Assembly (NCBI GenBank): GCA_020629615.1 | Contig: JAHDCZ010000011.1 | Span: forward strand, 1-46,933 | Length of the DNA stretch: 46,933 nucleotides | Source of the DNA: Saprospiraceae bacterium | Lineage (GTDB): Bacteria; Bacteroidota; Bacteroidia; Chitinophagales; Saprospiraceae | Direction of reading: 5' to 3' | In this document: positions 10,328 through 41,097 of the stretch, one piece after another | Layout of the letters: every line of letters starts with the position of its first letter | Numbering within the stretch: position 1 is the first letter of the stretch | Notes under the pieces: model-generated | Seen by the model: only the letters and a program-made list of their open reading frames with translations | The model's database searches: none | Told to the model about the DNA's origin: nothing | Position numbers and translations under genes: made by a program

Positions 10328-13300
10328 ATGATGTCCAACTTCTTCCAAAGGATTTATAATTACGTACAGAGGAGAAAATGGTTGATCCCATTTTGCTTTG
10401 TTTTAATTTTGAGTGCCTGTGGGCTATCACTTTGGACCAGCAAATTGGAAGAGGATATTACTAAAATTCTCCCCAACAACGAGGAGATCGATAAATTCAA
10501 TGAAGGCTTTTTAGATTCGGAAATGTCCAATCGCATGATTGTTCATTTGTCAACTGAAAAAGATAGTCTTTCTGATGAACTTGGGGAATTTTGTCAGCTC
10601 ATTGTAGATTCTCTTTCTTCCCCTTTCTATGATGAGGCCATCCGTTCGATCACTTATAAAATGGATGCTTCCCTGTTTCAAAATTTAAGTTCTAATATTC
10701 TTGAAAACTTGCCTTTGTTTTTGGAAGAAGAAGACTATCAAGTTATTGAACAATCGATCCAACCCGATGCTATTGAAGAACGCACCTACGGAGCATATAA
10801 GGCCCTTTTATCGCCTGCGAGTTTTGCTTTCAAAGATATTTTAAGGAAGGATCCTTTAGGATTTTCCAATCTGGTGTTTGAACAATTAACCAATTTTCAA
10901 TTAGATGACAATTTTGAGTTAAATAATGGATATTTAATCACGAAAGATAAAAAGCATTTGCTCTTTTTTATTTCACCTTTGACTAAAGTGAATGATTCTA
11001 GAAATGTCAATCAATTAATTAAAGACATAAAGGGTATTGGCAAACACTACGAAAAAAACTATTCCGATATAAAGTTTGAATATTTCGGAGGTCCTGCTAT
11101 TGCAGCAGCAAATTCTTTGCGGATCAAAAAAGATGTGAGTCTTACGGTAAGTATTGCATTGCTCAGCTTATTATTTATCATTACTTATTTCTATAAGGAT
11201 TGGAAAATATTTTTTTACATTCTGTTGCCGGTTTTAGCAGGAGCAGCGGCGGCCTTAGCCATAATTGGATTTGCAAAAACCAACTTGTCTATCATAGCAA
11301 TTGGTGTCGGATCAGTACTAATTGGAATTGGCATTGACTTTTCGATTCATTTATTTACACATTTCAAAAAAACAGGCAATGTACGTGAAGTGTTCAAAGA
11401 TGTCAGTTCTCCGATCCTCTTGAGTGCCATTACAACATCAACTGCTTTTTTATGTCTATATTTTGTGCGTTCTGAAGCGCTCCATGATCTTGGATTATTC
11501 GCTGCCTTGAGTGTATTTTGTGCCGCTGTTTTTGCATTATTGATCCTGCCCCATTTTTTTAGTAAGAAACCACAAAAAGTCTATAAAAAAACATTTATAG
11601 ATAAAATTGCTGCTTATCCATACCATAAAAACAAAATGCTTTCGATAGGCATTTTATGTCTTTTTGCCTTTTGCGCATTTTGGGCGCCCAATGTAGCCTT
11701 CGAAAAAAACCTGAACAACATCAATTATATGTCTCAGGAATTATTGGAAGCGGAAGAAAATATTAATTCAATTAGTGATGCCACTAAAAGAGGAATATAT
11801 CTCATTAGCATTGGAGAAAACTTAAATGAAGCACTAGATCATAGTTCAAACTTAGAACCCAAATTAAAAGAGTTAAAGGCGTCAGGAAAAATAGAATCCT
11901 TTTCAACTCCCAACCAACTGCTGAGCTCCGAAAGGATGCAACAAGAAAAAATAAAACGGTGGAAAGATTTCTGGACACCAGAAAAAATTGAATTCGTCGA
12001 AAGACAAATAATTGAACAGACCACAAAATTAAAATTTAAGGCGTCCGCTTTTAGTTCGTTTTTCGATCTATTGAAAAAAGACTTTAAACCTACGGGTCCC
12101 CAGAAACTAGATGAAGCAAGTGGCGGATTACTGAAGGATTATTATGCTGTCAAAGATGAGAATACGACGGTAACAACCATGATTCGTTTGGATCCAGAGG
12201 ATAAAAAGCATGTTCATGCGGCTTTCGCCGAAAGGGAAAAATTGGCGATTATTGACAAAGAATATATAGTCCATCAGTTTGTCGATACCTTAAAAACCGA
12301 TTTTAACAAATTGGTGTGGATATCTTTGCTGGTAGTTCTTATCCTCTTACATATTGTTTATGGTAGACCAGAATTGGCAATGGTTGCTTTTTTACCGATA
12401 TGTTTTTCATGGGTAATTACCTTGGGTTTAATGAATCTCATGGATATTAAATTTAATATTGTAAACATTATCATCACATCTTTCATTTTTGGACTAGGCA
12501 TAGATTATAGTATTTTTGTTCTTCGAGGTTTATTGCAAAAATATCGTACAGGAGAAGACAATTTGACTTCATACAAAACCTCCATTCTTTTATCTTCTTT
12601 TACAACACTTATTGGTATTGGAGTTTTGATATTTGCCAAACACCCTGCCTTAAAATCGATTGCCTCTATTTCACTCATTGGAATATTTTCTGTATTACTG
12701 GTCACATATATCTTGCAACCTTTAATTTTCAATTGGCTAACCGAAAAGAACGGTGAGAAAAGAGACTACCCATTGACTCTTTCTAATATGGGAAAAACTC
12801 TTTGGGTCTATTTCACTTTGGCCATGGGGTGTTTACTCCTTACAGTACTCGGAGTGATACTCCAGTTATTGTTTTTCATTCCTATTGAACTTAGAAAAAC
12901 CTTTTTTCATCATTGCATTTATTGGCTCTCAAAAGCATATATCAAAGTGTCATTTTTGAGTCGAGTCACATATCAAAATGAATCAAAAGAAGATTTTAGT
13001 AAGCCAAGTCTAATTGTAGCCAATCATAAATCTCTGATTGATACACCACTTTTTTTTCAGCTTACGCCGAAAGTATTAATTATCACAAATGATTGGGTAA
13101 ACAAATCTCCACTATATAGAATGATCTGCAAGTTTGCCGACTTTTATTCTATATCACGTGGAGCCGATGATTTATTAAACAAGCTCCAAGATCGTGTTAA
13201 TAAGGGCTATTCCATTGCCATATTCCCAGAAGGCACAAGATCAAAAACTGAGGAATTATTACGATTGAAAAAGGGATCATTTTATCTAGCAGAGAAACTT

Positions 13301-14161
13301 CAATTGGATATTGTACCAATGCTCATTCATGGCACACTCCCATTCCTATCCAAAGGAAATTTCTTTGGAAGAGCCAGCGATATCACGGTGAGAATAAAAG
13401 AAAGAATTCCGCACTCGTCAGGCAAGTTTGGAAATGATTATTCAACTTTCACTAAATCCTTTGGCAAATGGTTTAAGGAGCAATATCGCATAATTCGTAA
13501 GGACAGAGAAACAGTAGATTACCATCGAGAAGAAATAATATACAACTACATATACAAAGGTCCAATTACGGAACATTATACTAGAGTAAAAACAAGAATG
13601 GAAGAAAATTATAAAATCTTCGATTCTATTATATCTCATGATTCGCTCATAACCGATTTGGGTTGCGGTTTAGGGCATATGACCTTTTTCTTGGGTAAAA
13701 CCAGACCCAATCGTAAATTTATCTCAATGGACTACGATTGTAATAAAGTTGAGATTGCCAATAATTGTGCGATCAAAACTTCCAATATGCGATTTAGTTG
13801 CGCTGATGTTAGAAGTTTCGAACTAGAAAACTCGGACGTTTTTATCATTTCCGACATGCTCCATTATTTAAAACCGAAGGAACAATTTCAACTTTTGGAA
13901 CGATGTCTAAACAAATTAAATCCAGGAGGAAAAATCATCTTAAGGGATGGAGATCGTGACTTAGAAAAACGTCATGAAGGAACCAAATGGACTGAAATAT
14001 TTTCTACAAAAATGGGCTTCAATAAGACAGCAAATGAATTGCATTTTATTTCTGGTCAAGAATTAAAAAACTGGTGTGTTCAACGAGAACTAAAACTTAG
14101 CAAATTGGATGAGACTAAATTCACTTCTAATGTTATTTTTGTCATTGAAAACACAAATTAA
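10328..14161 (+). CDS. Trifunctional MMPL/RND transporter - lysophospholipid acyltransferase - SAM methyltransferase fusion
   Basis: A 1277-residue fusion protein. Residues 1-about 800 form an MMPL/RND-type transporter. It has one TM near 18, a periplasmic loop, and a five-TM bundle around 268-415 with GIGIDFSIHLFTH. A second loop and TM set (about 660-800) carries GLGIDYSIFVLRG. After another TM near 825 comes a PlsC-like acyltransferase with NHKSLID (HX4D, near 899) and FPEGTRS (near 966). From about 1080 there is a class I methyltransferase with DLGCGLGH near 1109. Inference: it exports or flips the pigment lipid and also acylates and methylates it. First gene of the plus arm; the next gene follows by 23 bases. 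Similar fusions exist in other Bacteroidota pigment clusters as far as I recall. Confidence 0.88.
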   Translation: MMSNFFQRIYNYVQRRKWLIPFCFVLILSACGLSLWTSKLEEDITKILPNNEEIDKFNEGFLDSEMSNRMIVHLSTEKDSLSDELGEFCQLIVDSLSSPFYDEAIRSITYKMDASLFQNLSSNILENLPLFLEEEDYQVIEQSIQPDAIEERTYGAYKALLSPASFAFKDILRKDPLGFSNLVFEQLTNFQLDDNFELNNGYLITKDKKHLLFFISPLTKVNDSRNVNQLIKDIKGIGKHYEKNYSDIKFEYFGGPAIAAANSLRIKKDVSLTVSIALLSLLFIITYFYKDWKIFFYILLPVLAGAAAALAIIGFAKTNLSIIAIGVGSVLIGIGIDFSIHLFTHFKKTGNVREVFKDVSSPILLSAITTSTAFLCLYFVRSEALHDLGLFAALSVFCAAVFALLILPHFFSKKPQKVYKKTFIDKIAAYPYHKNKMLSIGILCLFAFCAFWAPNVAFEKNLNNINYMSQELLEAEENINSISDATKRGIYLISIGENLNEALDHSSNLEPKLKELKASGKIESFSTPNQLLSSERMQQEKIKRWKDFWTPEKIEFVERQIIEQTTKLKFKASAFSSFFDLLKKDFKPTGPQKLDEASGGLLKDYYAVKDENTTVTTMIRLDPEDKKHVHAAFAEREKLAIIDKEYIVHQFVDTLKTDFNKLVWISLLVVLILLHIVYGRPELAMVAFLPICFSWVITLGLMNLMDIKFNIVNIIITSFIFGLGIDYSIFVLRGLLQKYRTGEDNLTSYKTSILLSSFTTLIGIGVLIFAKHPALKSIASISLIGIFSVLLVTYILQPLIFNWLTEKNGEKRDYPLTLSNMGKTLWVYFTLAMGCLLLTVLGVILQLLFFIPIELRKTFFHHCIYWLSKAYIKVSFLSRVTYQNESKEDFSKPSLIVANHKSLIDTPLFFQLTPKVLIITNDWVNKSPLYRMICKFADFYSISRGADDLLNKLQDRVNKGYSIAIFPEGTRSKTEELLRLKKGSFYLAEKLQLDIVPMLIHGTLPFLSKGNFFGRASDITVRIKERIPHSSGKFGNDYSTFTKSFGKWFKEQYRIIRKDRETVDYHREEIIYNYIYKGPITEHYTRVKTRMEENYKIFDSIISHDSLITDLGCGLGHMTFFLGKTRPNRKFISMDYDCNKVEIANNCAIKTSNMRFSCADVRSFELENSDVFIISDMLHYLKPKEQFQLLERCLNKLNPGGKIILRDGDRDLEKRHEGTKWTEIFSTKMGFNKTANELHFISGQELKNWCVQRELKLSKLDETKFTSNVIFVIENTN
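12220..12232 (-). repeat. Recurring motif copy on the minus strand (13 of 14 bases)
   Basis: Reads TTCGGCGAAAGCC on the minus strand, matching the ATTCGGCGAAAGCC motif except for its first base. It lies within the transporter domain coding sequence. Confidence 0.5.
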
Positions 14162-14184
14162 TCCTAAAACACATAGAAAAACAA

Positions 14185-15705
14185 ATGCAAAAGCCTTATG
14201 ATGTCGTGATAATAGGTAGTGGTCTTGGAGGACTCGAATGCGCTTATATCCTTGCTCAGGAGGGTCACAAAGTATGTGTTCTAGAAAAGAATAGACAATA
14301 TGGAGGTTGTCTTCAAATTTTCTCTCGTGACAAAGTAATCTTTGACACTGGGGTTCATTACATCGGAGGTTTAGACAAAGGACAAAACTTATATCAATAT
14401 TGGAATTACTTCGGACTGATGGATAATCTGAAGCTGCGGAAAATGGATGAGGATGGTTTTGACCACATTAGTTTTGGTGATGACCCAACTCCATATAAGC
14501 ACGCCATGGGCTATAGTGGATTTGAAGAAGAACTTATAAGACAGTTTCCAAAAGAAGTGGCAGGAATAAAAAAATATATCTCCAAGATCAAAGAGGTTTG
14601 TCAGTTCTTTCCTTTATACAATGTTAGAGAAAAAACGGATCATTCGTTTGACACTCAATATTTAAGTATTAATACTAAGGACTTTATTGCCGAATGTACG
14701 CAAGATGTTTTATTGCAAAATGTGCTTGCAGGATCAAATGCTCTTTATGCCGGATATGCAGATCGAACCCCACTATACGTTCACGCTTTGGTAATTAATA
14801 CTTACATTGAAAGTTCTTATAAATGTATTGATGGAGGCGGTCAAATAACTCGTCATTTTGAGCGCTCCTTGAAGTCCATGGGATGTGACCTCTTCAATTA
14901 TGCTGAAGTTAAACAGCTTCATATAAGTCAGGGCGAGGCGACTTCCGTCGAATTGAAAGATGGGAGGATCATAGAAGGAAAACAGTTCATTTCTAACATT
15001 CATCCAAAAGCAACAATGGATCTTGTTGCCTCAGGTATCATAAGAAAATCCTATAGAAATAGAATGTCCAATTTGGAAAATAGTATATCGGTTTTTACCG
15101 TACATATTGTATTCAAAGAGGATAGTTTTGAGTATCTGAATTATAATATTTATCATCATGGCACTCAAGACGCTTGGTCTTCGGTTAATTATAAAAAAGA
15201 AGAATGGCCCGAAAGTTTTGCCGCTTTTGTTCCTGCAGATTCCAAATCTGAAAAATATGCTACGGGTATGAATGTTATGGCTTACATGAATTATTCTGAA
15301 TTAGAAAAGTGGTCAAATACATTTAACACCATACCTAAAAACCGAAGTGATCGTAGTCAAGAATACCAAGATTGGAAAATCGAAAAGGCCGAATTACTCA
15401 TTGATAAATTATCTGTGAAATTTCCAAATATTCGAGAAAAAATTAAGTCTTACTATACTTCTACTCCTCTCTCATTTCGAGATTATATCGGCACTCAAGA
15501 TGGTTCTCTCTATGGCGTCAGAAAAGATTATAGAGATCCTCTAAGGACTTATATTTCTCCAAAAACTAAGATTCCAAATTTATTCTTAACAGGTCAAAAT
15601 TTGAATATGCATGGAATGTTGGGAGTAACTGTGGGATCTATTGTAACTTGTGCTCAATTTATGGACAACAACTACCTCGTTCGAAAAATCAAAGCAGCCA
15701 ATTAA
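14185..15705 (+). CDS. CrtI-like FAD-dependent oxidoreductase (plus arm)
   Basis: A 506-residue flavoprotein of the phytoene-desaturase-like family. The N-terminal Rossmann motif is VVIIGSGLGGLECAYILA (GSGLGG at 11-16), followed by VLEKNRQYGGCLQIF and FDTGVHYIGG. The C-terminal FAD signature is LFLTGQNLNMHGMLG near 470. No carotenoid genes (crtB, crtE) lie nearby. It therefore more likely acts on the polyene or aryl product (dehydrogenation, isomerisation or saturation) than on carotenoids. A second, related enzyme is encoded at 21966-23558. It sits 23 bases after the transporter gene and 13 bases before the C45 hydrolase start. Confidence 0.88.
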   Translation: MQKPYDVVIIGSGLGGLECAYILAQEGHKVCVLEKNRQYGGCLQIFSRDKVIFDTGVHYIGGLDKGQNLYQYWNYFGLMDNLKLRKMDEDGFDHISFGDDPTPYKHAMGYSGFEEELIRQFPKEVAGIKKYISKIKEVCQFFPLYNVREKTDHSFDTQYLSINTKDFIAECTQDVLLQNVLAGSNALYAGYADRTPLYVHALVINTYIESSYKCIDGGGQITRHFERSLKSMGCDLFNYAEVKQLHISQGEATSVELKDGRIIEGKQFISNIHPKATMDLVASGIIRKSYRNRMSNLENSISVFTVHIVFKEDSFEYLNYNIYHHGTQDAWSSVNYKKEEWPESFAAFVPADSKSEKYATGMNVMAYMNYSELEKWSNTFNTIPKNRSDRSQEYQDWKIEKAELLIDKLSVKFPNIREKIKSYYTSTPLSFRDYIGTQDGSLYGVRKDYRDPLRTYISPKTKIPNLFLTGQNLNMHGMLGVTVGSIVTCAQFMDNNYLVRKIKAAN

Positions 15706-15718
15706 AACGAGATTATCC

Positions 15719-17371
15719 ATGCCACTAAAAAAGAGATATAGAATATTCGCGGTTCTATCGGTTCTATTACTATTTGCTGTGCTCTTGTTTATTTGGCTCA
15801 TTTACATTTCTCCACCTGAAGTGAAAGATAAGAGCGCTCTTGACGTTCCTAGAATTAAGATATCAGATACTCACTATACTCATGGGAATAATTGGTTGAG
15901 AAAAAATAAATACGGAATATGGGAAATGTATATTGAAGGAGATCCCTTTGATCGAGGTGTATCAATCGGTTGTCTTTCTGAAGAACTATTGGAATATCAA
16001 GAAAAAGCCTTTGTAGATGGTGTATACAAATTGCTCCCCCAAGGCTTTATGGTCCATTTTTTAAAATTAATGGTTGCTTGGCAAAATAGAAATTTACCAG
16101 ATTATATTCCTGTTGAATATCAAAAAGAAATAGCTGGATTTTCAAGATATGCAAGTGACGACTATGACTACATCGGACCTAAATATCACCGCAAGTTATT
16201 GTTTCATGCGGCTCATGACATTGGCCACACCGTACAAAATATGGGATTGGTGGGTTGCAGTGCTTTTGCGGCCTGGGGTAACAAAACAGAAGATGGACAG
16301 ATTATAACAGGTAGAAATTTTGACTTTTACGTAGGAGATGAATTTAAAGAAAATAAACTTCTACTATTTCTAAAACCAAATTCAGGCTATGGATTTGTGT
16401 CGTATTCATGGGCAGGAATGCTCGGGGTACTCTCTGGAATGAATGAAAGAGGTCTATCTATTAGCTTAAATGCAGGACCACCAGAAATGCCCAAAGCTTC
16501 AAAAACACCCGTTTCGATATTAGGAAGGCATATCCTTCAATACGCCTCAAACATTGAAGAGGCTATCAATATTGCCAACGACTTTGAAACCTTTGTCTCT
16601 GAAAGTTTTTTGATCTGTTCAGCGGATGATGGACGTTGCATTATTATTGAAAAATCTCCAGATACTTTGGCCATAGTGGAAGCCAATGACAAACTTCTCA
16701 TTAGTACCAATCATTTTCAGTCAAAGTTATTTAACGATTTGAAATCGAACCTCGAATTTAAAAAGGAATCGTCTACCTTAAGGAGATCTCAACGCCTTAG
16801 TACATTATTGAAAGATACAATCTTGAACCCCGATCTCGCAGTGGCTACACTTCGTGATAGAGGTGGAAATAAAAGTGAATTATTTGGAATGGGTAATGAA
16901 GAAAATATCAATATTCTTTTGGCTCATCATTCGATCCTTTTTCAACCAGAATCATTGACAACTTGGGTATCGGTTGGATTAAATCCGATGAATGAGTTTA
17001 TTAAATATGATATATCTTCTTTCTTTAACTCTTCACCAAAATCAGATTTTTTCAAATTTGATGAATTTATTCCTTCATCGGAATGGACAAAGAGTCAGGA
17101 GTATGTACGTTATACCACCTATCATAAATTGTATAATGAGTTAGAAGACAAAATAAGAACAGATCAAAAACTCAGTAGAGAGCAATTTGATTCACTCATT
17201 CAATTGAATCCGCAGCTGTATAAAGCATATTCTTTAGCTGGACTTTATTATTCTGATCAGGGAGAATGCGAAATATCAGAATCATATTTAAAGAGCGCCT
17301 TGACAAAAATTATCCCATGGAAAAAAGACGAGCTCGAAATTCAAAAGGCGCTTAACGAATGTCAATTATAA
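15719..17371 (+). CDS. C45-family autoproteolytic acyltransferase/hydrolase (Ntn fold), membrane-anchored
   Basis: From the ATG at 15719 the protein has 550 residues. The frame extends upstream to 15650 inside the CrtI-like gene, but that part has no leader features. The N-terminus has a basic stretch and one TM (about 6-29), suggesting a membrane-anchored protein with an external domain. The Ntn-hydrolase part shows GLVGCSAFAAWG with Cys180 as the likely autoproteolysis site and nucleophile. GRNFDFYVGDE follows, then SYSWAGMLGVLSGMNERGLSISLN. The C-terminal 60 residues look TPR-like. The family includes acyl-CoA:6-aminopenicillanate acyltransferase, so acyl transfer to, or hydrolysis of, a pigment ester or amide is plausible. 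The actual substrate is unknown. Confidence 0.82.
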   Translation: MPLKKRYRIFAVLSVLLLFAVLLFIWLIYISPPEVKDKSALDVPRIKISDTHYTHGNNWLRKNKYGIWEMYIEGDPFDRGVSIGCLSEELLEYQEKAFVDGVYKLLPQGFMVHFLKLMVAWQNRNLPDYIPVEYQKEIAGFSRYASDDYDYIGPKYHRKLLFHAAHDIGHTVQNMGLVGCSAFAAWGNKTEDGQIITGRNFDFYVGDEFKENKLLLFLKPNSGYGFVSYSWAGMLGVLSGMNERGLSISLNAGPPEMPKASKTPVSILGRHILQYASNIEEAINIANDFETFVSESFLICSADDGRCIIIEKSPDTLAIVEANDKLLISTNHFQSKLFNDLKSNLEFKKESSTLRRSQRLSTLLKDTILNPDLAVATLRDRGGNKSELFGMGNEENINILLAHHSILFQPESLTTWVSVGLNPMNEFIKYDISSFFNSSPKSDFFKFDEFIPSSEWTKSQEYVRYTTYHKLYNELEDKIRTDQKLSREQFDSLIQLNPQLYKAYSLAGLYYSDQGECEISESYLKSALTKIIPWKKDELEIQKALNECQL

Positions 17372-17379
17372 TCAAATAA

Positions 17380-18672
17380 ATGATTCACTCAATCGAACAT
17401 ACCAATAGAGAACAAATAGAACACTTTAAACTTGCCAAACTTAAAGCTAGTTTATTGTATTTAGAAAGTTTCTCACCGTATTATCAATCCCTTTTTAGAA
17501 AACATAATATCAATCTTGATATACAGAGTTTCGAAAATTTAGGGCAAATTCCTTGTACGACTAAGACAGATTTACAAAATAATAATCTTGATTTTTTGTG
17601 TGTCCCTAAATCAGAAATCGCTGAATGGACCACTACCTCAGGTACTCTTGGAAGTCCTGTATCCTTTGGTTTGACACAGAACGACTTGAAACGTTTGGGT
17701 AGAAATGAAGCAAGGTCTTTGATGATAACAGATTGTCGACCATCAGACACGATCCAACTCATGGTTACTTTAGACAAGCGATTCATGGCTGGACTCGCCT
17801 ATTATCTTGGGGCACAAAATTTTGGTTGTGCAACTGTCAGAGTAGGTTCTGGTAGTCCCGGCTTACAGATCGATTCTTTGATTCGATTTAAAGCAAATGT
17901 AATTGTAGCAGTACCTTCTTTTTTATTAAAGGTTTTAGAATTCGCTGAAAAGCAAAAAAATGATCTCGAAGAAATACAAGTTGAAAAAGTAATTTGTATT
18001 GGAGAGCCTGTACGAAATTTGGATGGAACATTAAACAATCTAGGAGAACGATTAAAGAGTAAATGGCCTAAGACAAAATTTTTCTCTACTTATGCTTCTA
18101 CTGAAATGTCAACAGCTATAACAGAATGTAATGCCTGTCATGGAGGACATATCCCTGCAGATTTAATTCATGTGGAGTTACTGGATGAGGAAGGTAACAA
18201 TGTTCCACACGGTGAACCCGGAGAGGTAACCATTACAACTTTTGATCTTGAGGCAATGCCATTATTGCGTTATAGGACCGGTGACATCTGTAAGTTTTTA
18301 ATTGGTGATTGCCCATGCGGAAATAAAACTCAACGATTAAGTCCGGTACTAGGACGAAAAAAACAAATGATAAAATATAAAGGAACAACCCTATTTCCTG
18401 AAAGTATCTACGAATTAATGAATGGTGTAGAATGGATCAAAGATTATATTGTCGTCTTAGATACGAATGAGCTTGATACTGATGATCTAAGTGTAATGAT
18501 GTCCGTCGATGAAGAATTATATAATCAAAACGAATTGGAATATTTAGAAGAATTATTCCGCACCCATATTCGCGTAAAGCCAAAAATAGAATTAAAATCA
18601 GCTATAGAAATACGAAAAATCAAATTTCCCAGTTCAAGTAGAAAGCCTTTAAAGTTATTAGATAAAAGGTAA
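17380..18672 (+). CDS. PaaK-like adenylate-forming ligase
   Basis: A 430-residue enzyme of the phenylacetate-CoA ligase (PaaK/CapK) branch. The P-loop-like motif is TTSGTLGSPV (84-93), a variant of TSGTTGxP. YASTEMS lies near 240, and LLRYRTGDICKF near 295. Cysteines in ECNACHGG and DCPCGN could bind a metal, as in some relatives. It probably activates an aromatic acid such as 4-coumarate for loading on CoA or ACP. A second ligase of a different branch sits at 23560-24990, so the two may activate different acids. It starts eight bases after the C45 gene stop. Confidence 0.83.
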   Translation: MIHSIEHTNREQIEHFKLAKLKASLLYLESFSPYYQSLFRKHNINLDIQSFENLGQIPCTTKTDLQNNNLDFLCVPKSEIAEWTTTSGTLGSPVSFGLTQNDLKRLGRNEARSLMITDCRPSDTIQLMVTLDKRFMAGLAYYLGAQNFGCATVRVGSGSPGLQIDSLIRFKANVIVAVPSFLLKVLEFAEKQKNDLEEIQVEKVICIGEPVRNLDGTLNNLGERLKSKWPKTKFFSTYASTEMSTAITECNACHGGHIPADLIHVELLDEEGNNVPHGEPGEVTITTFDLEAMPLLRYRTGDICKFLIGDCPCGNKTQRLSPVLGRKKQMIKYKGTTLFPESIYELMNGVEWIKDYIVVLDTNELDTDDLSVMMSVDEELYNQNELEYLEELFRTHIRVKPKIELKSAIEIRKIKFPSSSRKPLKLLDKR

Positions 18673-18704
18673 AATAGTCATATCTTGATTTAAAATATAT
18701 TCTT

Positions 18705-27491: not shown

Positions 27492-27500
27492 TAAAGAATT

Positions 27501-29372: not shown

Positions 29373-29752
29373 CAATTCAGAGGCTTATAGACCGCTTTAA
29401 ATTTCAGACAAGTCCCTTCATTCGATTTAATTTGGCTCGAAATCTTTATCAAATCTTGCGAATTTTCTAAAATTGAGGTTTCAATACTCAGAGTCGCAGT
29501 TTTACCGGGATCGATCATTTTGAGAAATTTGACATTTTTGGCATTGATCAAATTTAATTCTAGCTTAAGTGATTGTTCCAAAAAATCTGTGATAATTCCT
29601 ATCTGAGAAACTCCAGGAAGTACAGGTTGATCTGGGAAATGGCCTTTAAAAATTGAATGTTCTTTATTTAGCTCAATTTGATGAACTAGACTCCCCTCTT
29701 CGACAGTACCAGATTCTGATATTAGCTTGTATAATTTTTCACTCATAGTCAT
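29372..29752 (-). CDS. Hot-dog 3-hydroxyacyl-ACP dehydratase (FabA/FabZ, ApeI-like)
   Basis: A 126-residue hot-dog protein with the dehydratase motif FKGHFPDQPVLPGVSQIG, where H38 is the catalytic histidine. This matches the FabZ/FabA-type HFPxxPVxPG signature and the ApeI-like dehydratases of aryl-polyene systems. It should dehydrate 3-hydroxyacyl-ACP to the 2-enoyl form in each extension cycle, giving the conjugated chain because no enoyl reductase is present. The second dehydratase at 35962 may be its partner. It is translationally coupled to the GT2 gene. Confidence 0.82.
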   Translation of the reverse strand: MTMSEKLYKLISESGTVEEGSLVHQIELNKEHSIFKGHFPDQPVLPGVSQIGIITDFLEQSLKLELNLINAKNVKFLKMIDPGKTATLSIETSILENSQDLIKISSQIKSNEGTCLKFKAVYKPLN

Positions 29753-33450: not shown

Positions 33451-33698
33451 GTATTGGCATCGATATGCTCTGCGATTGATCTTACTGATTTAAATATTTT
33501 CTTTCCATCTTCCTGATTTTGAATTTTCACTCCATATTCTCTTTCCAAAAGAACAATAATTTCTAAGGCATCAATGGAATCTAATCCCAGCTCACTTTCA
33601 AACAGAGAATCATCTTCATTGATATCCTCTGGTGTCATGTCTTCCAAATTCAACTGGTCGATCAATTGTAATTTTAGTTTGTCAATCAATTCTTGCAT
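33447..33698 (-). CDS. Acyl carrier protein (between ketosynthases)
   Basis: An 83-residue ACP with ELGLDSIDALEIIVLLE, where Ser41 is the phosphopantetheine site, and acidic flanks. It is encoded between the half-KS gene (4-base gap) and an active KS (4-base overlap), so it is the likely carrier for chain extension. The DSID sequence and acidic helix II are close to fatty acid ACPs and to ApeE/ApeF-type ACPs. Confidence 0.92.
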   Translation of the reverse strand: MQELIDKLKLQLIDQLNLEDMTPEDINEDDSLFESELGLDSIDALEIIVLLEREYGVKIQNQEDGKKIFKSVRSIAEHIDANT

Positions 33699-33702: not shown

Positions 33703-34335
33703 TTAAACTCGATTTATTTTGTTATAAATAGATTCTACATTTTTACTAGTAAATTCGGCGAAAGCCTCAGGATTATCTGAAATTCTCTCCACCCAAGATA
33801 AGAAAACATTTTGCACACCTCTATAAAATTCTACCCATCCCACAATTGCTCCATTAATTCTTTGTTCCTCAAAGAGTAAAGTTACATAATTGACCAAATT
33901 CTGTACATCAAATTGATCACCGATCCACATTGCTTGTTCACCCTTAAATCCATGCCTTATGCTCAATTCTCCTAACATAATATTTGGAAGAGTATATACA
34001 AAAAGGGCTGGATTTGGTTTTATTTCGCCAGGCGTAAATGTTTTCTCAAAATAGTTTTCATCCGTATCCAAAGATGCCGACTTATTCATTAAAAAAACAC
34101 CAATTTTCTCTTTTTCGACCAATGTATTACAACATGACATTAATCCTTCGGCGGCCAAAAAGGCACTTTTGGACATCTTATCCATCTTAAAAAATTTAGG
34201 ATAAGAAACATTCAAACCTTGGTAAATCTCTTTTAGCGCTTCGACCATTTCTACTCTTGAAGAGTTTATATTGAGTTTTTTGCCTACTTGAAGGTGCTTG
34301 TCATTCAGAAAACTACTTTGCTTAATACAAATCAT
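33703..34335 (-). CDS. Half-length ketosynthase-like protein
   Basis: A 210-residue protein resembling the N-terminal part of FabF-type ketosynthases: KMDKMSKSAFLAAEGLM, then a strand GVFLMNKSASLDTDENY, then PNPALFVYTLPNIMLGELSIR, and a final strand INGAIVGWVEF. The thiolase-fold C-terminal half is absent, as are the two catalytic histidines. The position of the active Cys reads EQAMWIG, so it cannot act as a KS. Proteins annotated 3-oxoacyl-ACP synthase of this size occur in Bacteroidota pigment clusters. It overlaps the upstream KS by four bases and may be its regulatory partner. Confidence 0.78.
   Translation of the reverse strand: MICIKQSSFLNDKHLQVGKKLNINSSRVEMVEALKEIYQGLNVSYPKFFKMDKMSKSAFLAAEGLMSCCNTLVEKEKIGVFLMNKSASLDTDENYFEKTFTPGEIKPNPALFVYTLPNIMLGELSIRHGFKGEQAMWIGDQFDVQNLVNYVTLLFEEQRINGAIVGWVEFYRGVQNVFLSWVERISDNPEAFAEFTSKNVESIYNKINRV
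33753..33766 (+). repeat. Copy 3 of recurring 14-bp motif ATTCGGCGAAAGCC
   Basis: Exact match to the copies at 7473 and 25396. On the opposite strand it encodes EAFAEF near the C-terminus of the half-length KS protein. Confidence 0.6.
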
Positions 34336-35477
34336 ATCGCTTTCTTTTTAAAGATTATTGAAGCATTACATCCTCCAAAACCAGAAGCGGTTTTCAAAAC
34401 GGCGTTTATCGTTTTCTTATTTGATTTTCGAATAATATTTACAGGATCTGTAGTTCCTTGATTGCTAAAACCTATCGATCCTACCAAGGTATTTTCTAAA
34501 ATACTGTGATAAGAAGCAATGCATTCAATTACTCCTGCCGCTCCCAAGGTATGCCCCCAGTATCCTTTAAAACTATTCGTGGGCACCTCATGAAGGTTCA
34601 TAGATTTCAGAGCTTTGGCTTCCATTTCATCATTAAATAATGTGGCAGTGCCGTGCGCAGAAACGAAGTCAATTTCTGAAACGTCTGTACCTAATAATGA
34701 TTGTTGAATGGCTCGGATCATCCCTTCCCCATCTCTTGATGGTCCGCTGATATGATTGGCATCATTAGTAGAAGCTCCACCAGCAATTTCTATAGGGTAT
34801 CCCTTCTTTTCTGCAGACAAAATAATCGTACCACAAGCATCTCCTAAATTAATTCCTTTTCTTTTGGCATCAAACGGAAGACAAGGTTCCTGACTCAGTG
34901 CTTTCAATGAGTTAAATCCAGAAAGTGTAAAATCCGTTACCTCATCACAAGCTATGACGATGATATGTTTATAGTCTCCTACTTTCAATATTCTTTGTGC
35001 CGTAATGATCGCAACTACACCTGAAATACAGGCATTAGATATAAGGATTGGTTTGATCTTGTTTCCAAAAAAAGAAGTAATCGCTTTTGCCATGTTTTGC
35101 AAAAACCTTCGTTTCCTTGGGACTTTCGCTTTCGCGGAATGTTTAAGTAAATCAATATTTCCTTTGGTTGTAGAAAATACAAATAGAACATCCTTACCAG
35201 TGGGATCTATATCTGCAATGTCAAGTGCATTTTTAATGGAAAGTATAGAATTCATCTCAAGCTTGGTAAAATTTTCTGCATTACCTAGCTCGGTAAATAA
35301 ATCTTCACTTTGCGATATCTCGATTATACCACTATTGTGAAATAAATCAAGTGATTTGGAATAATGTCTTTTTAATCCTGTTACGCCCTGACTTAAAGAC
35401 GCAAAGTTTTTCTTGGTCGTCCACCCTAAGGGACTCGTTATATTATCTCCTATAATAGAAATCTCACTCATGTACAT
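34332..35477 (-). CDS. Beta-ketoacyl-ACP synthase (active triad, initiating or extending)
   Basis: A 381-residue KS, somewhat short for FabF. The triad is intact: ISNACISGVVAI (C150), SAHGTATLFND (H275) and YWGHTLGAAG (H309). The residues after the Cys (ISG, not SSS or ASG) differ from the other cluster KSs, suggesting a different substrate or timing, for example priming with the aryl starter. Its stop overlaps the half-KS gene by four bases (ATGA), and it follows the thioesterase gene by four. A start at MSEIS two codons later is equally possible. Confidence 0.9.
   Translation of the reverse strand: MYMSEISIIGDNITSPLGWTTKKNFASLSQGVTGLKRHYSKSLDLFHNSGIIEISQSEDLFTELGNAENFTKLEMNSILSIKNALDIADIDPTGKDVLFVFSTTKGNIDLLKHSAKAKVPRKRRFLQNMAKAITSFFGNKIKPILISNACISGVVAIITAQRILKVGDYKHIIVIACDEVTDFTLSGFNSLKALSQEPCLPFDAKRKGINLGDACGTIILSAEKKGYPIEIAGGASTNDANHISGPSRDGEGMIRAIQQSLLGTDVSEIDFVSAHGTATLFNDEMEAKALKSMNLHEVPTNSFKGYWGHTLGAAGVIECIASYHSILENTLVGSIGFSNQGTTDPVNIIRKSNKKTINAVLKTASGFGGCNASIIFKKKAI
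35128..35140 (-). repeat. Variant motif ATTCCGCGAAAGC
   Basis: 13-mer variant of the recurring motif on the minus strand, identical to 42965-42977. It lies in a KS gene and is read in the frame encoding HSAKAK. Confidence 0.5.
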
Positions 35478-35481: not shown

Positions 35482-35910
35482 TTATACTACCCCCCATTTC
35501 TCTTTCCATTTTTGATAAAAATCCGGTGTATTCAATTCTAGAGCATAGGTGTCCTTATGACAAAAAACTTGAATAGAATATCCAGTAGCAACTAATGCTT
35601 TAGTTTCGGCATTATATATCTCGTATTCGAATTTGATCTTTGCAGCTGGCGTATTGATGAATTTGGTCTTTACGATGGCTTCCTCTCCAAAAGTAAGTGG
35701 CAATTTGTGGTTCACATGAAATTCTACAATCGGAGTTGAAAAACCATGTTCAAAGACATCTAAGTAACTTAGATTATACTTTCTTCCAAACGCTTGTCTA
35801 CCGTCTTCAAAATAATTTACATAATGACCGTGCCATACGATTCGAAGTGCGTCTACTTCGTTAAAACGGACACGTAATTTGGTTTCACAAACTAAGTCTA
35901 ACTTCTCCAA
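35482..35910 (-). CDS. Acyl-CoA/ACP thioesterase, 4HBT hot-dog family
   Basis: A 142-residue YbgC/4HBT-like hot-dog protein. The signature RFNEVDALRIVWHGHYVNYFED, with its conserved Asp near residue 19 and the following HGHYVNYFE, is the usual active-site helix region. It may release the finished polyene acid, or edit stalled ACP species, as ApeK does in aryl-polyene clusters. The start is TTG (MEKLDLV); no in-frame ATG is nearby. It lies four bases upstream of a KS gene and 51 bases after the dehydratase gene. Confidence 0.85.
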   Translation of the reverse strand: MEKLDLVCETKLRVRFNEVDALRIVWHGHYVNYFEDGRQAFGRKYNLSYLDVFEHGFSTPIVEFHVNHKLPLTFGEEAIVKTKFINTPAAKIKFEYEIYNAETKALVATGYSIQVFCHKDTYALELNTPDFYQKWKEKWGVV

Positions 35911-35961: not shown

Positions 35962-36399
35962 TTATACAAGGGGTTCATCTAGTATGAATATTTTCATTTC
36001 ACAACTGGCGATTTTTTGATCATTCAGATAGGTATTTCCTTGAATTATTTTGATATTCATAACTTCTTGAAGCTCTTGAATTTCAGTGATTATCTCTTCT
36101 CCTATTTGCGGCCATGCGCATATTTCTAAATTCTTTACGCTTCCAATAAAACCGAGTTTTACGGGTTGGTTATTACTTTTAAAATAATATCCAGCCGAGG
36201 CGGCGGCTGTTTGTGCAATATTCTCAATCAAGCCCATTGAACTCAGCTGACCATTTTTGATAAAAATATTATCTTCCAAGATTGTAAATCCTGATTTAGT
36301 CCCTTGTTCTGTGACAGAATAAAGACTATCAATCATTACCACTGGTGGCCGCTGAGGAATATATTGTAATATTTCTTCTCCTTTGATCATTGCTTCCAT
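35962..36399 (-). CDS. Hot-dog dehydratase-like protein (ApeP-like)
   Basis: A 145-residue hot-dog protein. The N-terminal IPQRPPVVMIDSL matches the PHRxPMxxID pattern of FabZ/ApeP relatives. The helix SMGLIENIAQTAAASAGYY corresponds to the central hot-dog helix with the ENIAQ acidic position. The His of canonical FabZ (HFPxxP) is not visible. It may therefore be the accessory half of a heteromeric dehydratase with the ApeI-like protein at 29372-29752, as described for E. coli ApeI/ApeP. It is one base from the acyltransferase gene. Confidence 0.8.
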   Translation of the reverse strand: MEAMIKGEEILQYIPQRPPVVMIDSLYSVTEQGTKSGFTILEDNIFIKNGQLSSMGLIENIAQTAAASAGYYFKSNNQPVKLGFIGSVKNLEICAWPQIGEEIITEIQELQEVMNIKIIQGNTYLNDQKIASCEMKIFILDEPLV

Positions 36400-36400: not shown

Positions 36401-37303
36401 CTAATTCAATTGTTTTGTCTCCGTTTCATTCCAAAACGGATAAAAGTTATACCATTGCTTGGGATATTTCAAAATCATTTTTTCTAGATTTTGAATATAA
36501 TCTTTCATTACCTCCTTTTCGGTTTTGTTACTACCATTTCCTTCTATCGCAAAAAACTCATAATGATATTTATTGGTTTTGACTGCAAAAACAAAACAAT
36601 AAGGTACTTTCAGTCGAGTCACCAAACTAAACGGACCAACCGGAAAATACGCATCTTGACCCAAGAAAGGTAAAAGCATTTTTTTAGATTTAACCGGATC
36701 CGAAAACCGATCACCATGAATACAAATAAGTTCTCCTGCTCTTAGGGCTCTGTTGATTTCAAATAAATGAGAATAGTCCTGTTTGATCGTTATGATATTT
36801 GTTTTTTTCTTGACCATAACTTTGTTCAACATGGCCTTTATTTGTTGGTGTTCTCCATCAAATAGAACAATATTAATGGGAACATTCAATTTATTGATGA
36901 AATGTCCAGCGATTTCCCAATTTCCAAGATGTGCGCTAATTAATATACCTCCTTTCTTTTCTTCGGCCAGTTTCCATAAATGTTGAGCACCATTAGAATT
37001 GCTGGTAAAAGGATGATCCCTTTTACTTAAAACAGCTACCTTATCAAGAATTGTCTGTCCAAAATTATAGTAACACTGATAGACATTGACAACAGATTTA
37101 AAAGGATTTAATCCTAATCTTTTTCGAAAATATGTGTAGCTGGAAATGGTCGATTTACCACCAAAAAGCAGAAAATAGAATGAAACGAAATATAAAATAA
37201 AGTAAGCAAAACTAACACCGAAAGTCTCTAGAATAAAATGAAATATTTTATATCCAGTTAGACCACCTCTTGTCTTCCCATCCCAGGATGACTGTTTTTC
37301 CAT
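36401..37303 (-). CDS. LpxL/HtrB-like lipid acyltransferase
   Basis: A 300-residue membrane-associated acyltransferase. An N-terminal hydrophobic stretch (about 19-48) is followed by the catalytic ISAHLGNWEIAGHF (H125 and E130, HX4E), then ICIHGDRFSD and LLPFLGQDAYFPVGPF. The C-terminal PKQWYNFYPFW is typical of the LpxL/HtrB family. In aryl-polyene clusters such an enzyme is thought to attach the polyene acyl chain to its lipid or glycerol acceptor. The start codon overlaps the ACP stop by one base (TAATG), so this ACP may donate the acyl group. Confidence 0.88.
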   Translation of the reverse strand: MEKQSSWDGKTRGGLTGYKIFHFILETFGVSFAYFILYFVSFYFLLFGGKSTISSYTYFRKRLGLNPFKSVVNVYQCYYNFGQTILDKVAVLSKRDHPFTSNSNGAQHLWKLAEEKKGGILISAHLGNWEIAGHFINKLNVPINIVLFDGEHQQIKAMLNKVMVKKKTNIITIKQDYSHLFEINRALRAGELICIHGDRFSDPVKSKKMLLPFLGQDAYFPVGPFSLVTRLKVPYCFVFAVKTNKYHYEFFAIEGNGSNKTEKEVMKDYIQNLEKMILKYPKQWYNFYPFWNETETKQLN

Positions 37304-37548
37304 TAGCTATTGACCTTGCTATTTATAAAGTCATAAAATTGCTTAAATGTGGCGATGTCTTTAAAGTCTTCACCAGTAGCTTTGAAACCAAAATTGGATT
37401 CAATAATAACTACTAAATCCACAAAATCAAGACTATCTAAATCCAAGGTTTCAATAAGACCTGCGTCATCAACGATTGTTGATTCGTCAACTTCAAACTC
37501 TTCTACTAAAAATTCTTTTACAGTTGAAACTATTTGATTGTATTCCAT
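37303..37548 (-). CDS. Acyl carrier protein (near the FabF-like KS)
   Basis: An 81-residue ACP with TLDLDSLDFVDLVVIIE, where Ser39 is the phosphopantetheine site. The long acidic N-terminal part (VEEFEVDESTIVDD) is normal for ACPs. Its stop overlaps the acyltransferase start by one base, and it lies 18 bases after the KS stop. This makes it a candidate carrier linking chain extension to acyl transfer. It is the third ACP of the cluster, the others being at 27501 and 33447. Confidence 0.92.
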   Translation of the reverse strand: MEYNQIVSTVKEFLVEEFEVDESTIVDDAGLIETLDLDSLDFVDLVVIIESNFGFKATGEDFKDIATFKQFYDFINSKVNS

Positions 37549-37566: not shown

Positions 37567-38790
37567 TTATTTCTTAAATTTCTTTAAAATTAGGGTTGAA
37601 TTGGTTCCTCCAAATCCAAATGAATTAGAAAGTACCGTATCAACCTTCAAATCTATTCTTTTTTCTGCAATTTTCAATTTTGTAGAAGACTCATCTGGAT
37701 TTTCAAAGTTAATATTTGGGGCTATGAATGAATCTTGCATCATTAAAATACTATATACAATCTCACTCGCTCCTGCCATCCAACACTCATGTCCCGTCAT
37801 CGACTTAGTCGAACTTACCCAAGGAACATCAGTACCAAAAACCTCTGCGATTGATTCGGCCTCACTTTTATCCCCTACTGGAGTTGAGGTAGCATGTGCA
37901 TTAATGTAGTCAATATCTGTTAGCTGAACTCCAGCGTCCGCAATACATCTTTTCAGAGATTTAATAGGGCCATCTACACTTGGCTTAGAAATATGTGCTC
38001 CGTTAGATGAAAATCCGTAGCCTATCACTTCTGCCAAAATAGGTGCTCCTCGTTGAATTGCAGACTCATATGATTCTAAAATTACAGTTGCCGCACCACC
38101 ACTAGGCACTAAACCATCTCTATCCTTATCGAAAGGTCTTGATGCTTTTGTGGGATCATTTTCCAGAATTGAAAAGGCACTTAAGCCATCAAAACTTCCC
38201 ATTGCAAATTTATTTACTTCTTGAGCGCCTCCACAAATCACTCTTTCTTGCAATCCATTTTTGATAAGAACATATGCCAAACCTATTGAATGAGATCCAC
38301 TGGCGCAGGCTGCACTTACAGTAAAATTTATACCCGTTACTTTAAATATCGTGGATAAATTCATTGTTACTGTCGAATTCATCGCTTGGAAGATGGCACC
38401 TGATCCCAAGAGCGTCGTATCTTTTTTCTCTCTTATAGCATCAACAGAATCGATTACAGCTCTTGCAGAACTGTCATTGCCATAAATGACTCCCGTTTCA
38501 TTTTTTTCAAGAAAATCATTATCCATTTTGCTCATTTCTAGAGCTTGAACAGTGGCCATATACGCATACTCGCCTTCTTCGGCTAATTGAATACGTTGCC
38601 TTCTCGGCAAAAGCCCTTTTAAAGTAGGTCGTTCTAAGTGTCCCGTCAGACCGGAGCGAAAACCAAACTCTTTTCTTTCTTGATCTAAAACTATTCCAGA
38701 CTTTCCGTGATACAAAGAGTTTTTAACTTCATCTAGGGTTGTCCCAAGACAAGAATAAATTCCGATACCTGTTATAACTACTCTTTGCAT
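37567..38790 (-). CDS. Beta-ketoacyl-ACP synthase, FabF-like (first KS of the minus arm)
   Basis: A 407-residue KAS II-type enzyme with an intact triad: VSAACASGSHSIG (C162), NAHATSTPVGD (H299) and STKSMTGHECWMAG (H334). The HATSTP and GHECWMAGASE variants are typical of aryl-polyene KSs of the ApeR/FabF type. It is preceded by FabG (40 bases) and followed by an ACP (18 bases), which suggests a role in early extension or priming. Confidence 0.92.
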   Translation of the reverse strand: MQRVVITGIGIYSCLGTTLDEVKNSLYHGKSGIVLDQERKEFGFRSGLTGHLERPTLKGLLPRRQRIQLAEEGEYAYMATVQALEMSKMDNDFLEKNETGVIYGNDSSARAVIDSVDAIREKKDTTLLGSGAIFQAMNSTVTMNLSTIFKVTGINFTVSAACASGSHSIGLAYVLIKNGLQERVICGGAQEVNKFAMGSFDGLSAFSILENDPTKASRPFDKDRDGLVPSGGAATVILESYESAIQRGAPILAEVIGYGFSSNGAHISKPSVDGPIKSLKRCIADAGVQLTDIDYINAHATSTPVGDKSEAESIAEVFGTDVPWVSSTKSMTGHECWMAGASEIVYSILMMQDSFIAPNINFENPDESSTKLKIAEKRIDLKVDTVLSNSFGFGGTNSTLILKKFKK

Positions 38791-38830: not shown

Positions 38831-39559
38831 TTAAGTATATAGCCCACCATTGACAGAGATCACCTCACCTGTGATATAACTCGCTTCCTTTTTACATAAA
38901 AAATCAACAACCGAAGCAACTTCATCGGCTGTTCCAAATCTTCTAGCCGGGATAAATGTTTTCCATTGCGCCTCATCAATATCTTCGGTCATTTCAGTTT
39001 TAATGAATCCAGGCGCCACACAATTCACTGTAATGTTTTTCCTACTAATTTCTTGAGCCAAAGATTTTGATGCTGCAATTACACCCGCCTTAGCGGCAGA
39101 ATAATTCGTCTGACCAGCCATACCCTTAATACCTGAAAGTGAAACAACATTAACAATTCGGCCATATTTATTTCTTATCATCTTTTTCAGTACTTCAGTT
39201 GTAACTGTAAAAAATCCACCTAAATGAATATCCAGTACATCATCCCACTCTTCGTCAGTCATCCAAACCATCAGATTGTCCTTTCTGATACCTGCGTTAT
39301 TAACTAAAATCTCAATACACTGTCCGTCATGACTCTCGTGCCAAGATGAGATAGCCTTTCTAACTTCTTCTTTATTAGCGACATCAAATTGAAGCAAAGA
39401 AGCTTGCCCCCCTTCTTCCTCAATCATTTTAACAACCTCATTCGCTGCATCACTGTTACTACGATAGTTGATAACAACATGATAGCCTTGACGAGCTATA
39501 CGTAAAGCAATCGCACGACCGATTCCTCTACTTCCTCCTGTGATCATCGCATACTTCAT
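38831..39559 (-). CDS. 3-oxoacyl-ACP reductase (FabG-like SDR)
   Basis: A 242-residue short-chain dehydrogenase with the cofactor motif TGGSRGIGRAIA (7-18), LVNNAGI, catalytic Ser140, and YSAAK (Y153, K157), ending in GEVISVNGGLYT. It reduces the 3-keto group of the growing polyene on ACP using NADPH, matching ApeQ in aryl-polyene systems. Its start is two bases after the lyase stop. No enoyl reductase is present in the cluster, as expected for a polyene. Confidence 0.92.
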   Translation of the reverse strand: MKYAMITGGSRGIGRAIALRIARQGYHVVINYRSNSDAANEVVKMIEEEGGQASLLQFDVANKEEVRKAISSWHESHDGQCIEILVNNAGIRKDNLMVWMTDEEWDDVLDIHLGGFFTVTTEVLKKMIRNKYGRIVNVVSLSGIKGMAGQTNYSAAKAGVIAASKSLAQEISRKNITVNCVAPGFIKTEMTEDIDEAQWKTFIPARRFGTADEVASVVDFLCKKEASYITGEVISVNGGLYT

Positions 39560-39561: not shown

Positions 39562-41097
39562 TTATTTTTTCAAGTGATTTACTAAGTTTTTCATTTCTCG
39601 ATAACGGGGCTTGTCTTGAATAATAGTTTCCACGATCTGTCTAAGATTACTATAAGTTACAGCGTTCTCGGTAGAAAGTGAATCTTTTATCTCTAAGTAA
39701 TCAACAGCTTGCAATACTGACATCATACCGATAGCCATCACTTCAAAACTATTATCAATTACCTTTTTGGTAATTAAGGCAGCATTCGTACCCATCGAAA
39801 CGATGTCCTGATTATCATTATTCGTCGGAATACTGTGTACATACATTGGATTACTTAACATCTGATTTTCTGCCGTTGTCGAGGTCGCTGTAAATTGCAT
39901 TCCTTGTATTCCAAAATTCAATCCCAATCTGCCAAGATTAATAAAAGGACTCAACTTATCATTTATTTTGCTATTCATCAAAAAGTTTATCTGACGTTCA
40001 CAAAGCATTGATAATTTGGTTATTGCAATCTTCAACTTATCCATTTCTAAGGAAACATAATCACCATGAAAGTTGCCTCCATGTAGTACATTTTTACCTT
40101 TATAATCTACAATAGGATTGTCGTTGGCTGAATTTAGTTCTGCGATCAAGACCGCCTCAACGCTCTCAATAGTATCTTTTATTGGACCTAATACTTGTGG
40201 CACACAACGAATAGAATAATACTCTTGTAGCTTTTCAACTAAGACGTCTTCGGTTTGATCATTAGATTTTAATGAAGCATATCTATTTTTGGTACGCTGA
40301 CTACCCACTAATAATTTCCTCATTTCCTCCGCAACAGCTGTTTGACCCTTGTGCATTTTAGCCCCATTCAAAATATCTGAATGATGATCGTCATAAGACT
40401 CCGTTATCTCATTTAGGAATGCCGACATAATCAGGGACCAATTCAATAATTTCTTGGCATTCCAAACGTTGACCAATCCTATACCCGTCATCGCAGATGT
40501 ACCATTAATTAGAGAAAGTCCTTCCCTAAGATAAACTTTTAGTGGAGTGATATTTGCTTCTTGAAATACCTCTTTGGCATCCCTATTCTTCCCTCGGTAT
40601 AAAAGTTCTCCTTCGCCGATTAATCCTAAAGCCAAATGTGATAATTGTACAAGATCCCCACTCGCACCAACTCCTCCATGTTCAAATATTTGAGGAGCGA
40701 TTTCATTATTTAAAAATGTGGCCAACAACTGAACTGTTGATTCATGTACACCAGAAAAAGCTTTTGACATACTAACCAAGCGAGCAAAGGTTATTGCTCT
40801 TGCCAGCTCAGAAGATAATACATTTCCTGAACCAGAAGAGTGGCTACGGATTAGATTATATTGCAAAGCATTTAGATCATCCTTTGGAATAATATGTTGA
40901 GCCATCGGACCAAAACCAGTATTCACTCCATAGATAATCTTGTCTTTTGAAAATCCTATAAGGAACTCATGACTTTTTCGAAGAGCTTCAATACAACTTG
41001 CATCAAGCTCAACCGAGTAATTTTCAAAGACTACATTACAAAAATCGTCTAGAGAAACGATTTTGCTTGATATCGTGATATTTTTTTTCAGAAGCAA
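39562..41097 (-). CDS. Tyrosine/histidine ammonia-lyase family (probable tyrosine ammonia-lyase)
   Basis: A 511-residue MIO-type lyase. Catalytic Tyr56 lies in IYGVNTGFGPMAQ. The substrate-pocket region is NLIRSHSSGSG, and the MIO triad A145-S146-G147 lies in HGGVGASGDLVQLSHLALGLIGEG-type sequence. Long stretches such as ENQMLSNPMYVHSIP, NDNQDIVSMGTNAA and HGGNFHGDYVSLEMD match what I remember of the Flavobacterium johnsoniae tyrosine ammonia-lyase. This favours tyrosine over histidine, with 4-coumarate as product and polyene starter. It is the first gene of the minus arm. The start is TTG with an in-frame stop just upstream; translation from a weak start could tune expression. Confidence 0.9.
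   Translation of the reverse strand: MLLKKNITISSKIVSLDDFCNVVFENYSVELDASCIEALRKSHEFLIGFSKDKIIYGVNTGFGPMAQHIIPKDDLNALQYNLIRSHSSGSGNVLSSELARAITFARLVSMSKAFSGVHESTVQLLATFLNNEIAPQIFEHGGVGASGDLVQLSHLALGLIGEGELLYRGKNRDAKEVFQEANITPLKVYLREGLSLINGTSAMTGIGLVNVWNAKKLLNWSLIMSAFLNEITESYDDHHSDILNGAKMHKGQTAVAEEMRKLLVGSQRTKNRYASLKSNDQTEDVLVEKLQEYYSIRCVPQVLGPIKDTIESVEAVLIAELNSANDNPIVDYKGKNVLHGGNFHGDYVSLEMDKLKIAITKLSMLCERQINFLMNSKINDKLSPFINLGRLGLNFGIQGMQFTATSTTAENQMLSNPMYVHSIPTNNDNQDIVSMGTNAALITKKVIDNSFEVMAIGMMSVLQAVDYLEIKDSLSTENAVTYSNLRQIVETIIQDKPRYREMKNLVNHLKK

Follow-up and report, generated by a model that had tools for sequence, protein, structure and literature searches.

An acyl carrier, condensation, flavoenzyme and ligase module within a flexirubin-type gene cluster of a Saprospiraceae bacterium without detected dar genes

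What is joined to the polyene when a flexirubin-type gene cluster comes without darA and darB? Flexirubins, which are yellow-orange pigments, are used in taxonomy as a marker, and it is the resorcinol ester that defines them. The question is raised by a stretch of 46,933 nucleotides from a Saprospiraceae bacterium (the window), in which a cluster of flx type occupies positions 10328-41097. An earlier note on the window had pointed out that darA and darB, taken there as the source of the resorcinol, are missing from the cluster, and had left two options: the genes lie elsewhere in the genome, or the polyene carries a different head group. Within the cluster we found a four-gene module (23560-27827) encoding a carrier protein, a stand-alone condensation-type protein (C-protein), an FAD enzyme and an acid-AMP ligase. 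This module, unseen by the earlier note, is the real point of interest of the locus. Our preferred reading, to which we give slightly less than an even chance, is that the flx cluster belongs to a lineage without dar and that the module would supply a different, non-resorcinol partner to a flexirubin-type aryl polyene, the chemistry being inferred.

The source assembly is a 3.3-Mb Saprospiraceae metagenome-assembled genome (MAG) in 214 contigs, with a completeness of 79% and a contamination of 4.5%; the window is bases 1-46933 of its 51,201-bp scaffold C45. At 0.360, the GC content of the window is close to the values of the few other loci read from the same genome (0.356-0.362). Thirty open reading frames (ORFs), selected from the ORF list with overlapping ORFs on the opposite strand omitted, span the cluster, and five on the plus strand (10328-19961) converge with 25 on the minus strand; the earlier note had likewise called the cluster convergent. 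FlxA, FlxY, LolA2 and LolB2 all exceed their NCBIfam equivalog cut-offs, which places the cluster with those for flexirubins; the type II polyene machinery of ketosynthase (KS), acyl carrier protein (ACP), ketoreductase (KR) and dehydratase (DH) is present as well. The family call of the earlier note was thus right, and Pfam and NCBIfam recovered the lyase, ligases, KS/ACP/KR/DH set, LolA and MMPL exporter that it listed; what it missed is that one of these ligases belongs to the module. The full flx set also holds a thioesterase, an LpxL-like acyltransferase, a GT2 glycosyltransferase and a polysaccharide deacetylase. The ten ORFs flanking the cluster are seemingly unrelated by Pfam.

No DarA or DarB was detected among the 30 cluster and ten flanking ORFs (Pfam) or among 20 of the 30 cluster ORFs (NCBIfam), in agreement with the earlier note. 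DarA proteins have a flavodoxin-like start, and the three rows of our DarA query alignment were named by this feature and by their adjacency to DarB; two of the three were scanned against NCBIfam, without a match. Searches of the whole 3.3-Mb assembly with NF053539 (DarB, E up to 1e-60), the DarA alignment (up to 0.1 and 0.001) and NF053550 (DarH, up to 1e-10) gave no match, and two further ketoacyl synthase III genes (329 and 352 aa) were seen. Taken alone, this leaves a true absence of dar about even, by a hand estimate from the 12 of 80 FlxA genomes without DarB and the unseen fifth of this genome.

The same queries were applied to a set of 80 FlxA genomes, made up of the 79 found among 396 genomes of the order and one more, G006 (genomes are cited by our numbers, G000 being the source assembly). 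DarB was found in 68, DarA in 70 and DarH in 71, and nine genomes had none of the three (G000, G006, G113, G245, G257, G297, G128, G148 and G194). Apart from G000, all of these are at least 95% complete; the FlxA of G128 is cut by a contig end. FlxA genomes lacking dar are real, and they account for six of the 11 Saprospiraceae in the set. Because DarB lies within 50 kb of FlxA in only eight of the 68 genomes having both, the absence of dar from the cluster by itself means little, and linkage is a poor guide. In ten more genomes DarB is farther away on the FlxA contig (18/68 on the same contig overall), and in 50 the two genes are on separate contigs, some of which may still lie near each other. 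FlxA is also an imperfect anchor for linkage, because the contig of G007 that bears darAB has other flx genes right beside them but no FlxA. In Chitinophaga pinensis, darAB are in the genome but apart from the flxA-flxY cluster, according to the account of that cluster in PMC3992019. That darAB should be part of the cluster is therefore no general rule. Of the two options of the earlier note, a different head group is still the better one. An ordinary flexirubin, with darAB hidden in the unassembled fifth of the genome and apart from flx as is common in the order, is in line with the incompleteness of the MAG and with the frequency and placement of DarB just given; its weakness appears when the other carriers of the module are considered, as described below.

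The module lies on the minus strand between the GT2 and phosphopantetheinyl transferase (PPT) genes and LolA2. Its ACP was listed as an ORF at 27501-27827, with a start that by hand is probably about 27749 (PP-binding 2e-8, GLDS motif). The adjacent AcpS-type PPT (27752-28126, minus; PF01648, 5e-18) adjoins the module in G257, G489 and G449 as well. The C-protein (26223-27491) matches PF00668 at 1.3e-4, below the cut-off. Foldseek, run on a low-confidence model, returned nonribosomal peptide synthetase (NRPS) condensation domains and their kin as top matches (E 1.5e-8, prob 1.00, TM-scores only 0.3-0.4; VIA: Z 13.5, 327 aligned, rmsd 6.5). SgcC5 (PDB 4znm) and VibH (1l5a) have the same fold by Foldseek, at an identity of only 12% and 11%, respectively; both are stand-alone C-proteins that act with separate carrier proteins. 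The HxxxD catalytic motif is found in WHHLLFDARG at residues 127-136, and HxxxDxxG, starting at residue 129, is kept in 15 of 16 rows. As modelled, the protein has the condensation fold.

The module ligase (23560-24990; PF00501, 4.5e-54) has homologues of 45-63% identity in the module loci, and its closest solved structures are oxalyl-CoA and feruloyl-CoA synthetases. Compared per domain, acyl-CoA synthetases score 144 bits against 73 and 66 for the amino-acid adenylation domains (A-domains) of LgrA, which came fourth by whole-protein score with 141.5 bits, the sum of its two A-domains. Asp235 of GrsA is the residue that binds the amino group in alpha-amino-acid A-domains. The ligase does not keep this Asp: in the HMMER alignment its His 197 stands against the Asp of SFD in the first LgrA domain, and MxYHF is conserved in 13/13 ligase homologue rows. 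An amino-acid head group introduced by an NRPS-like A-domain is disfavoured by the single-domain scores and by the Asp that is not kept. Together, the features of the ligase and the C-protein favour acid activation, loading onto the ACP and formation of an ester or amide as their probable functions. For the FAD-dependent oxidoreductase (24992-26236; PF12831, 1.7e-67; 32-44% identical to those of ten other module loci), sequence matches fall mostly over the nucleotide-binding stretch, and the matches of the model (pLDDT 69) to flavoprotein hydroxylases, halogenases and reductases are numerous and of similar quality. We assign it no reaction, and its role in the module is putative. A CrtI-like flavin oxidoreductase (CrtI-like 2; 21966-23558, minus; Pfam) follows the ligase. 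It has a 40% homologue near the separate module of G263 and 21-24% matches at other module loci; no homologue was seen beside the embedded modules of G006, G257, G449 and G489.

The distribution of the module was followed through its C-protein, with a two-row alignment on the 396 genomes of the order and an 11-row alignment on 398 Saprospiraceae. The two-row search matched nine genomes, eight of the 79 with FlxA versus one of the 317 without (p = 1.4e-5, kinship uncorrected); the sole FlxA-less match (68% complete) has the flx genes LolB2-DH1-GT2-PPT on the same contig. The 11-row search matched eight Saprospiraceae, seven of which have the FAD enzyme and ligase adjoining (G000, G006, G257, G449, G489, G596 and G601); in the eighth, G494, the match is a distant C-paralogue located at the end of a contig. 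The module is adjoined by flx genes in all of the seven except G601, where the contig is 3.3 kb long. Its ACP was seen in five of the seven; in G596 and G601 the contig begins or breaks off at the C gene. FlxA proper is present in G000, G006, G257, G449 and G596, is split in G494, and was not found in G489 (89% complete) or G601 (87% complete). In a 16-row tree the C-proteins of the six flx-adjoining Saprospiraceae form one clade with 98/96 support. A ligase tree groups the seven Saprospiraceae sequences at 94/97, although the G006 ligase was read only in part; the tree of the FAD enzymes is uncertain, as two long branches meet. Finally, when the window proteins were compared with the ORFs of stretches from 18 FlxA genomes, the module was found inside an flx cluster only in the dar-less G006, several stretches ending before the module point so that absence there is uninformative. 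An FlxA-to-MMPL stretch without the module was seen in G381 and G347 (with dar), in G194 (without dar) and also in G248 and G263.

No DarB was detected in any of the seven module-bearing Saprospiraceae, or in any of the eight when G494 is included. DarA and DarH are also absent from the three carriers searched for them (G000, G006 and G257); the test was for DarB alone in G449, G489, G494, G596 and G601. Among these carriers without DarB, G006 is 98%, G257 100% and G449 91% complete. As a marker, the module shifts the odds toward a true absence of dar in the source genome, because none of the six other Saprospiraceae carriers shows DarB. These six, and the missing DarA and DarH, are what make the ordinary flexirubin improbable.

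The module also occurs in six genomes with dar, at loci apart from flx. Five of these (G110, G248, G263, G336 and G367) have it as an operon that runs from ABC ATPase and permease through ACP and C-protein to FAD enzyme and ligase. In the sixth, G083, the ligase lies at a distance of 3.7 kb, and the 14 kb read there showed no ABC pair. The ATPases of the module operons are 43-48% identical to the dar-operon ATPase of G023, as compared with 47-49% for five other dar ATPases and 27% for the next-closest ABC ATPases of the loci retrieved. By this comparison, the module looks like a parallel operon built on the exporter and carrier plan of the dar operon. In the dar-less Saprospiraceae, it sits inside the flx cluster without the ABC exporter pair. 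A strict replacement of dar by the module is weakened as an explanation; the module does not simply replace dar, because these six genomes have both. That five dar-bearing genomes have the module as an independent operon with an ABC pair of its own, and that paralogous C-proteins are found elsewhere, would also fit a module that makes a separate small molecule and owes its place in the cluster to chance or to co-regulation. We give this little credence, given the contiguity with flx in six of the seven Saprospiraceae carriers and the enrichment in flx genomes. Further C-like proteins were seen at separate loci (L161, L162, L164 and L165), with CrtI-like enzymes near three of the four and an ABC pair adjoining in G006.

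Loss of dar does not require the module, because in six of the nine FlxA genomes without dar the C-protein search found nothing. This agrees with a third possibility, that the product is a plain aryl polyene (lipid) without resorcinol, anchored through the GT2, deacetylase and LpxL-like proteins, the module only decorating the polyene or the anchor. The GT2, deacetylase, LpxL and MMPL-acyltransferase genes are indeed present, and occur in clusters of dar-bearing genomes too; for marine Flavobacteriia, moreover, the part of PMC5932025 on these genes treats aryl polyene (APE) and dialkylresorcinol (DAR) genes as separable in their distribution. The plain aryl polyene leaves unexplained why an ACP/C-protein/FAD/ligase set is in the cluster and occurs in flx genomes in the order sample, and we hold it to be rather unlikely.

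In our preferred reading, of a module that adds a non-resorcinol partner, FlxA and a ligase would provide a coumaroyl starter, from which the KS/ACP/KR/DH set would build the aryl polyene on carrier proteins; the Lol and MMPL parts would carry the polyene to the outer membrane, in line with what has been proposed for flexirubin. The module ligase would activate a carboxylic acid onto the module's own ACP, charged by the adjacent PPT, and the FAD enzyme would alter the oxidation state of the acid carried there. The C-protein would then link acyl and acceptor as an ester or amide, with the aryl polyene as either donor or acceptor. More tentatively still, the module of dar-like plan in the flx cluster of dar-less Saprospiraceae may represent a second head-group system of flexirubin-type pigments, one that does not depend on resorcinol and yields an aryl polyene ester or amide. 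Several points weigh against these proposals. The source MAG is incomplete, and six dar-bearing genomes keep the module away from flx. Six dar-less FlxA genomes (G113, G245, G297, G128, G148 and G194) are without a C-protein match, if the same 396-genome draw applies. Among the FlxA Saprospiraceae examined, DarB is found in 0/6 with the C-protein versus 5/8 without (p = 0.031), a small test, uncorrected for kinship, in which three of the six were found via the C-protein and G494 has only the distant C-paralogue. Moreover, the C-protein scores 21.3 bits against PF00668, under the gathering cut-off of 30.6, and its model is weak (pLDDT 56, pTM 0.49).

The cluster resembles that of C. pinensis, as set out in PMC3992019, in its tyrosine ammonia-lyase starter, FlxY ligase, several KS, dehydratases, and Lol, exporter, glycosyltransferase and deacetylase genes, with dar outside the cluster; unlike C. 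pinensis, whose genome has darAB, none were found here, and the ACP/C-protein/FAD/AMP-ligase module is added. The same paper gives attachment of the partner to the polyene as a proposal only (FlxW). Similarly, the flx/APE genes of the marine Flavobacteriia are distributed apart from darA/darB, and the 16 APE genes named for them in PMC5932025 include no condensation-type protein or FAD/AMP-ligase module, unlike the window. The arcuflavin arc and dar genes of Azoarcus sp. BH72 also combine aryl polyene genes with a second operon holding an ACP, ABC ATPase, permease and head-group enzymes; there the second set is dar (DarA, DarB, a BtrH-like protein and a KS being named in the operon description of PMC3949708), whereas here it is the condensation-type protein, FAD enzyme and acid ligase. 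No flexirubin cluster is reported for two Saprospiria strains in the relevant part of PMC9248904. In the open-licence PMC literature we found no published account of the module or of its link to flx. Unlinked dar genes, and aryl polyene genes distributed apart from dar, are already known. From the recurrence of a different tailoring module in flx clusters we would predict a class of pigments that would be given the wrong name if annotated from the flx genes alone; the module would also give a genetic handle on the enzymes that attach the partner to the polyene.

The remaining genes of the cluster are as follows. The plus strand begins with a 1277-aa fusion of MMPL exporter, acyltransferase and methyltransferase (10328-14161; Pfam MMPL, Acyltransferase and Methyltransf_25), whose 1289-aa homologue in the dar-bearing G381 is 41% identical over 1285 columns. 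CrtI-like flavin oxidoreductase 1 (14185-15705; Pfam/NCBIfam) has homologues or pieces of 41-60% in other flx clusters, and its end is overlapped by the listed start of a C45 autoproteolytic acyltransferase/hydrolase (15650-17371; NF040521, 210 bits, cut-off 85), 36-42% identical to proteins of flx clusters with and without dar. FlxY, a putative acyl-CoA ligase (17380-18672; NF053551, 553 bits, cut-off 520), and a flavin halogenase/monooxygenase-like protein (18705-19961; Trp_halogenase, 4e-24), 47-51% identical to proteins in the flx regions of G347, G148, G194, G381, G248, G336 and G367, complete this arm. On the minus strand lie two conserved hypothetical proteins without a Pfam match, one of 203 aa (19967-20578) with homologues in other flx clusters and one of 213 aa (20591-21232) with homologues in the flx regions of G381, G263, G367 and G449, and LolA2 (21264-21896; NF053544, 209 bits, cut-off 125). 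Beyond the module and PPT follow, also on the minus strand, the GT2-DUF2062 glycosyltransferase (28194-29375; Pfam), the FabA/ApeI-like dehydratase 1 (29372-29752; PF07977, 3e-7), LolB2 (29764-30411; NF053540, 107 bits, cut-off 60) and the polysaccharide deacetylase (30404-31174; PF01522, 6e-31). A KS-like protein (31161-32228), in which a pattern search found no active-site Cys motif, is probably chain-length-factor-like. It is followed by ketosynthase 3 (32245-33450), ACP 2 (33447-33698), a conserved 210-aa flx protein (33703-34335; 25-45% homologues in flx clusters), the FabF-like ketosynthase 2 (34332-35477), which touches ACP_syn_III at 8e-6, and a 4HBT thioesterase (35482-35910). Dehydratase 2 (35962-36399) is weakly FabZ-like (NF000582, 2e-7, below cut-off). 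The arm ends with the LpxL-like acyltransferase (36401-37303; PF03279, 1e-15), ACP 1 (37303-37548), ketosynthase 1 (37567-38790), a FabG-like ketoreductase (38831-39559) and the FlxA tyrosine ammonia-lyase (39562-41097; NF053541, 781 bits, cut-off 700; ASG motif at 145).

Several minor observations were made around these loci. Directly past the window end lies a run of 100 N (L046:2935-3034), so that the window seems to end at a scaffold gap. In the same genus, G001 (89% complete) and G002 (87%) have only a 34% identical lyase, which suggests a patchy occurrence of the cluster within the genus. Beside the cluster, positions 24-6135 encode an LTD protein, a TonB-type receptor and a third secreted protein; in G043 (L042:60-6203), homologues of the LTD protein (27%) and receptor (44%) lie shortly before DarB. 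A DUF5686-type protein is encoded at 7586-10243, with relatives of 24-27% identity near flx genes in G110 and G128 and near C-paralogues in G449 and G006; these relatives lie at L134:613-3240, L089:4414-6912, L161:4336-6843 and L165:728-3229. In the dar-less locus L081 (G245), FlxA and a KR lie near a PPT and an EryCIII-like glycosyltransferase, and the gene sizes of L079 (G113) resemble those of L081; loci of this type perhaps specify a glycosylated aryl polyene.

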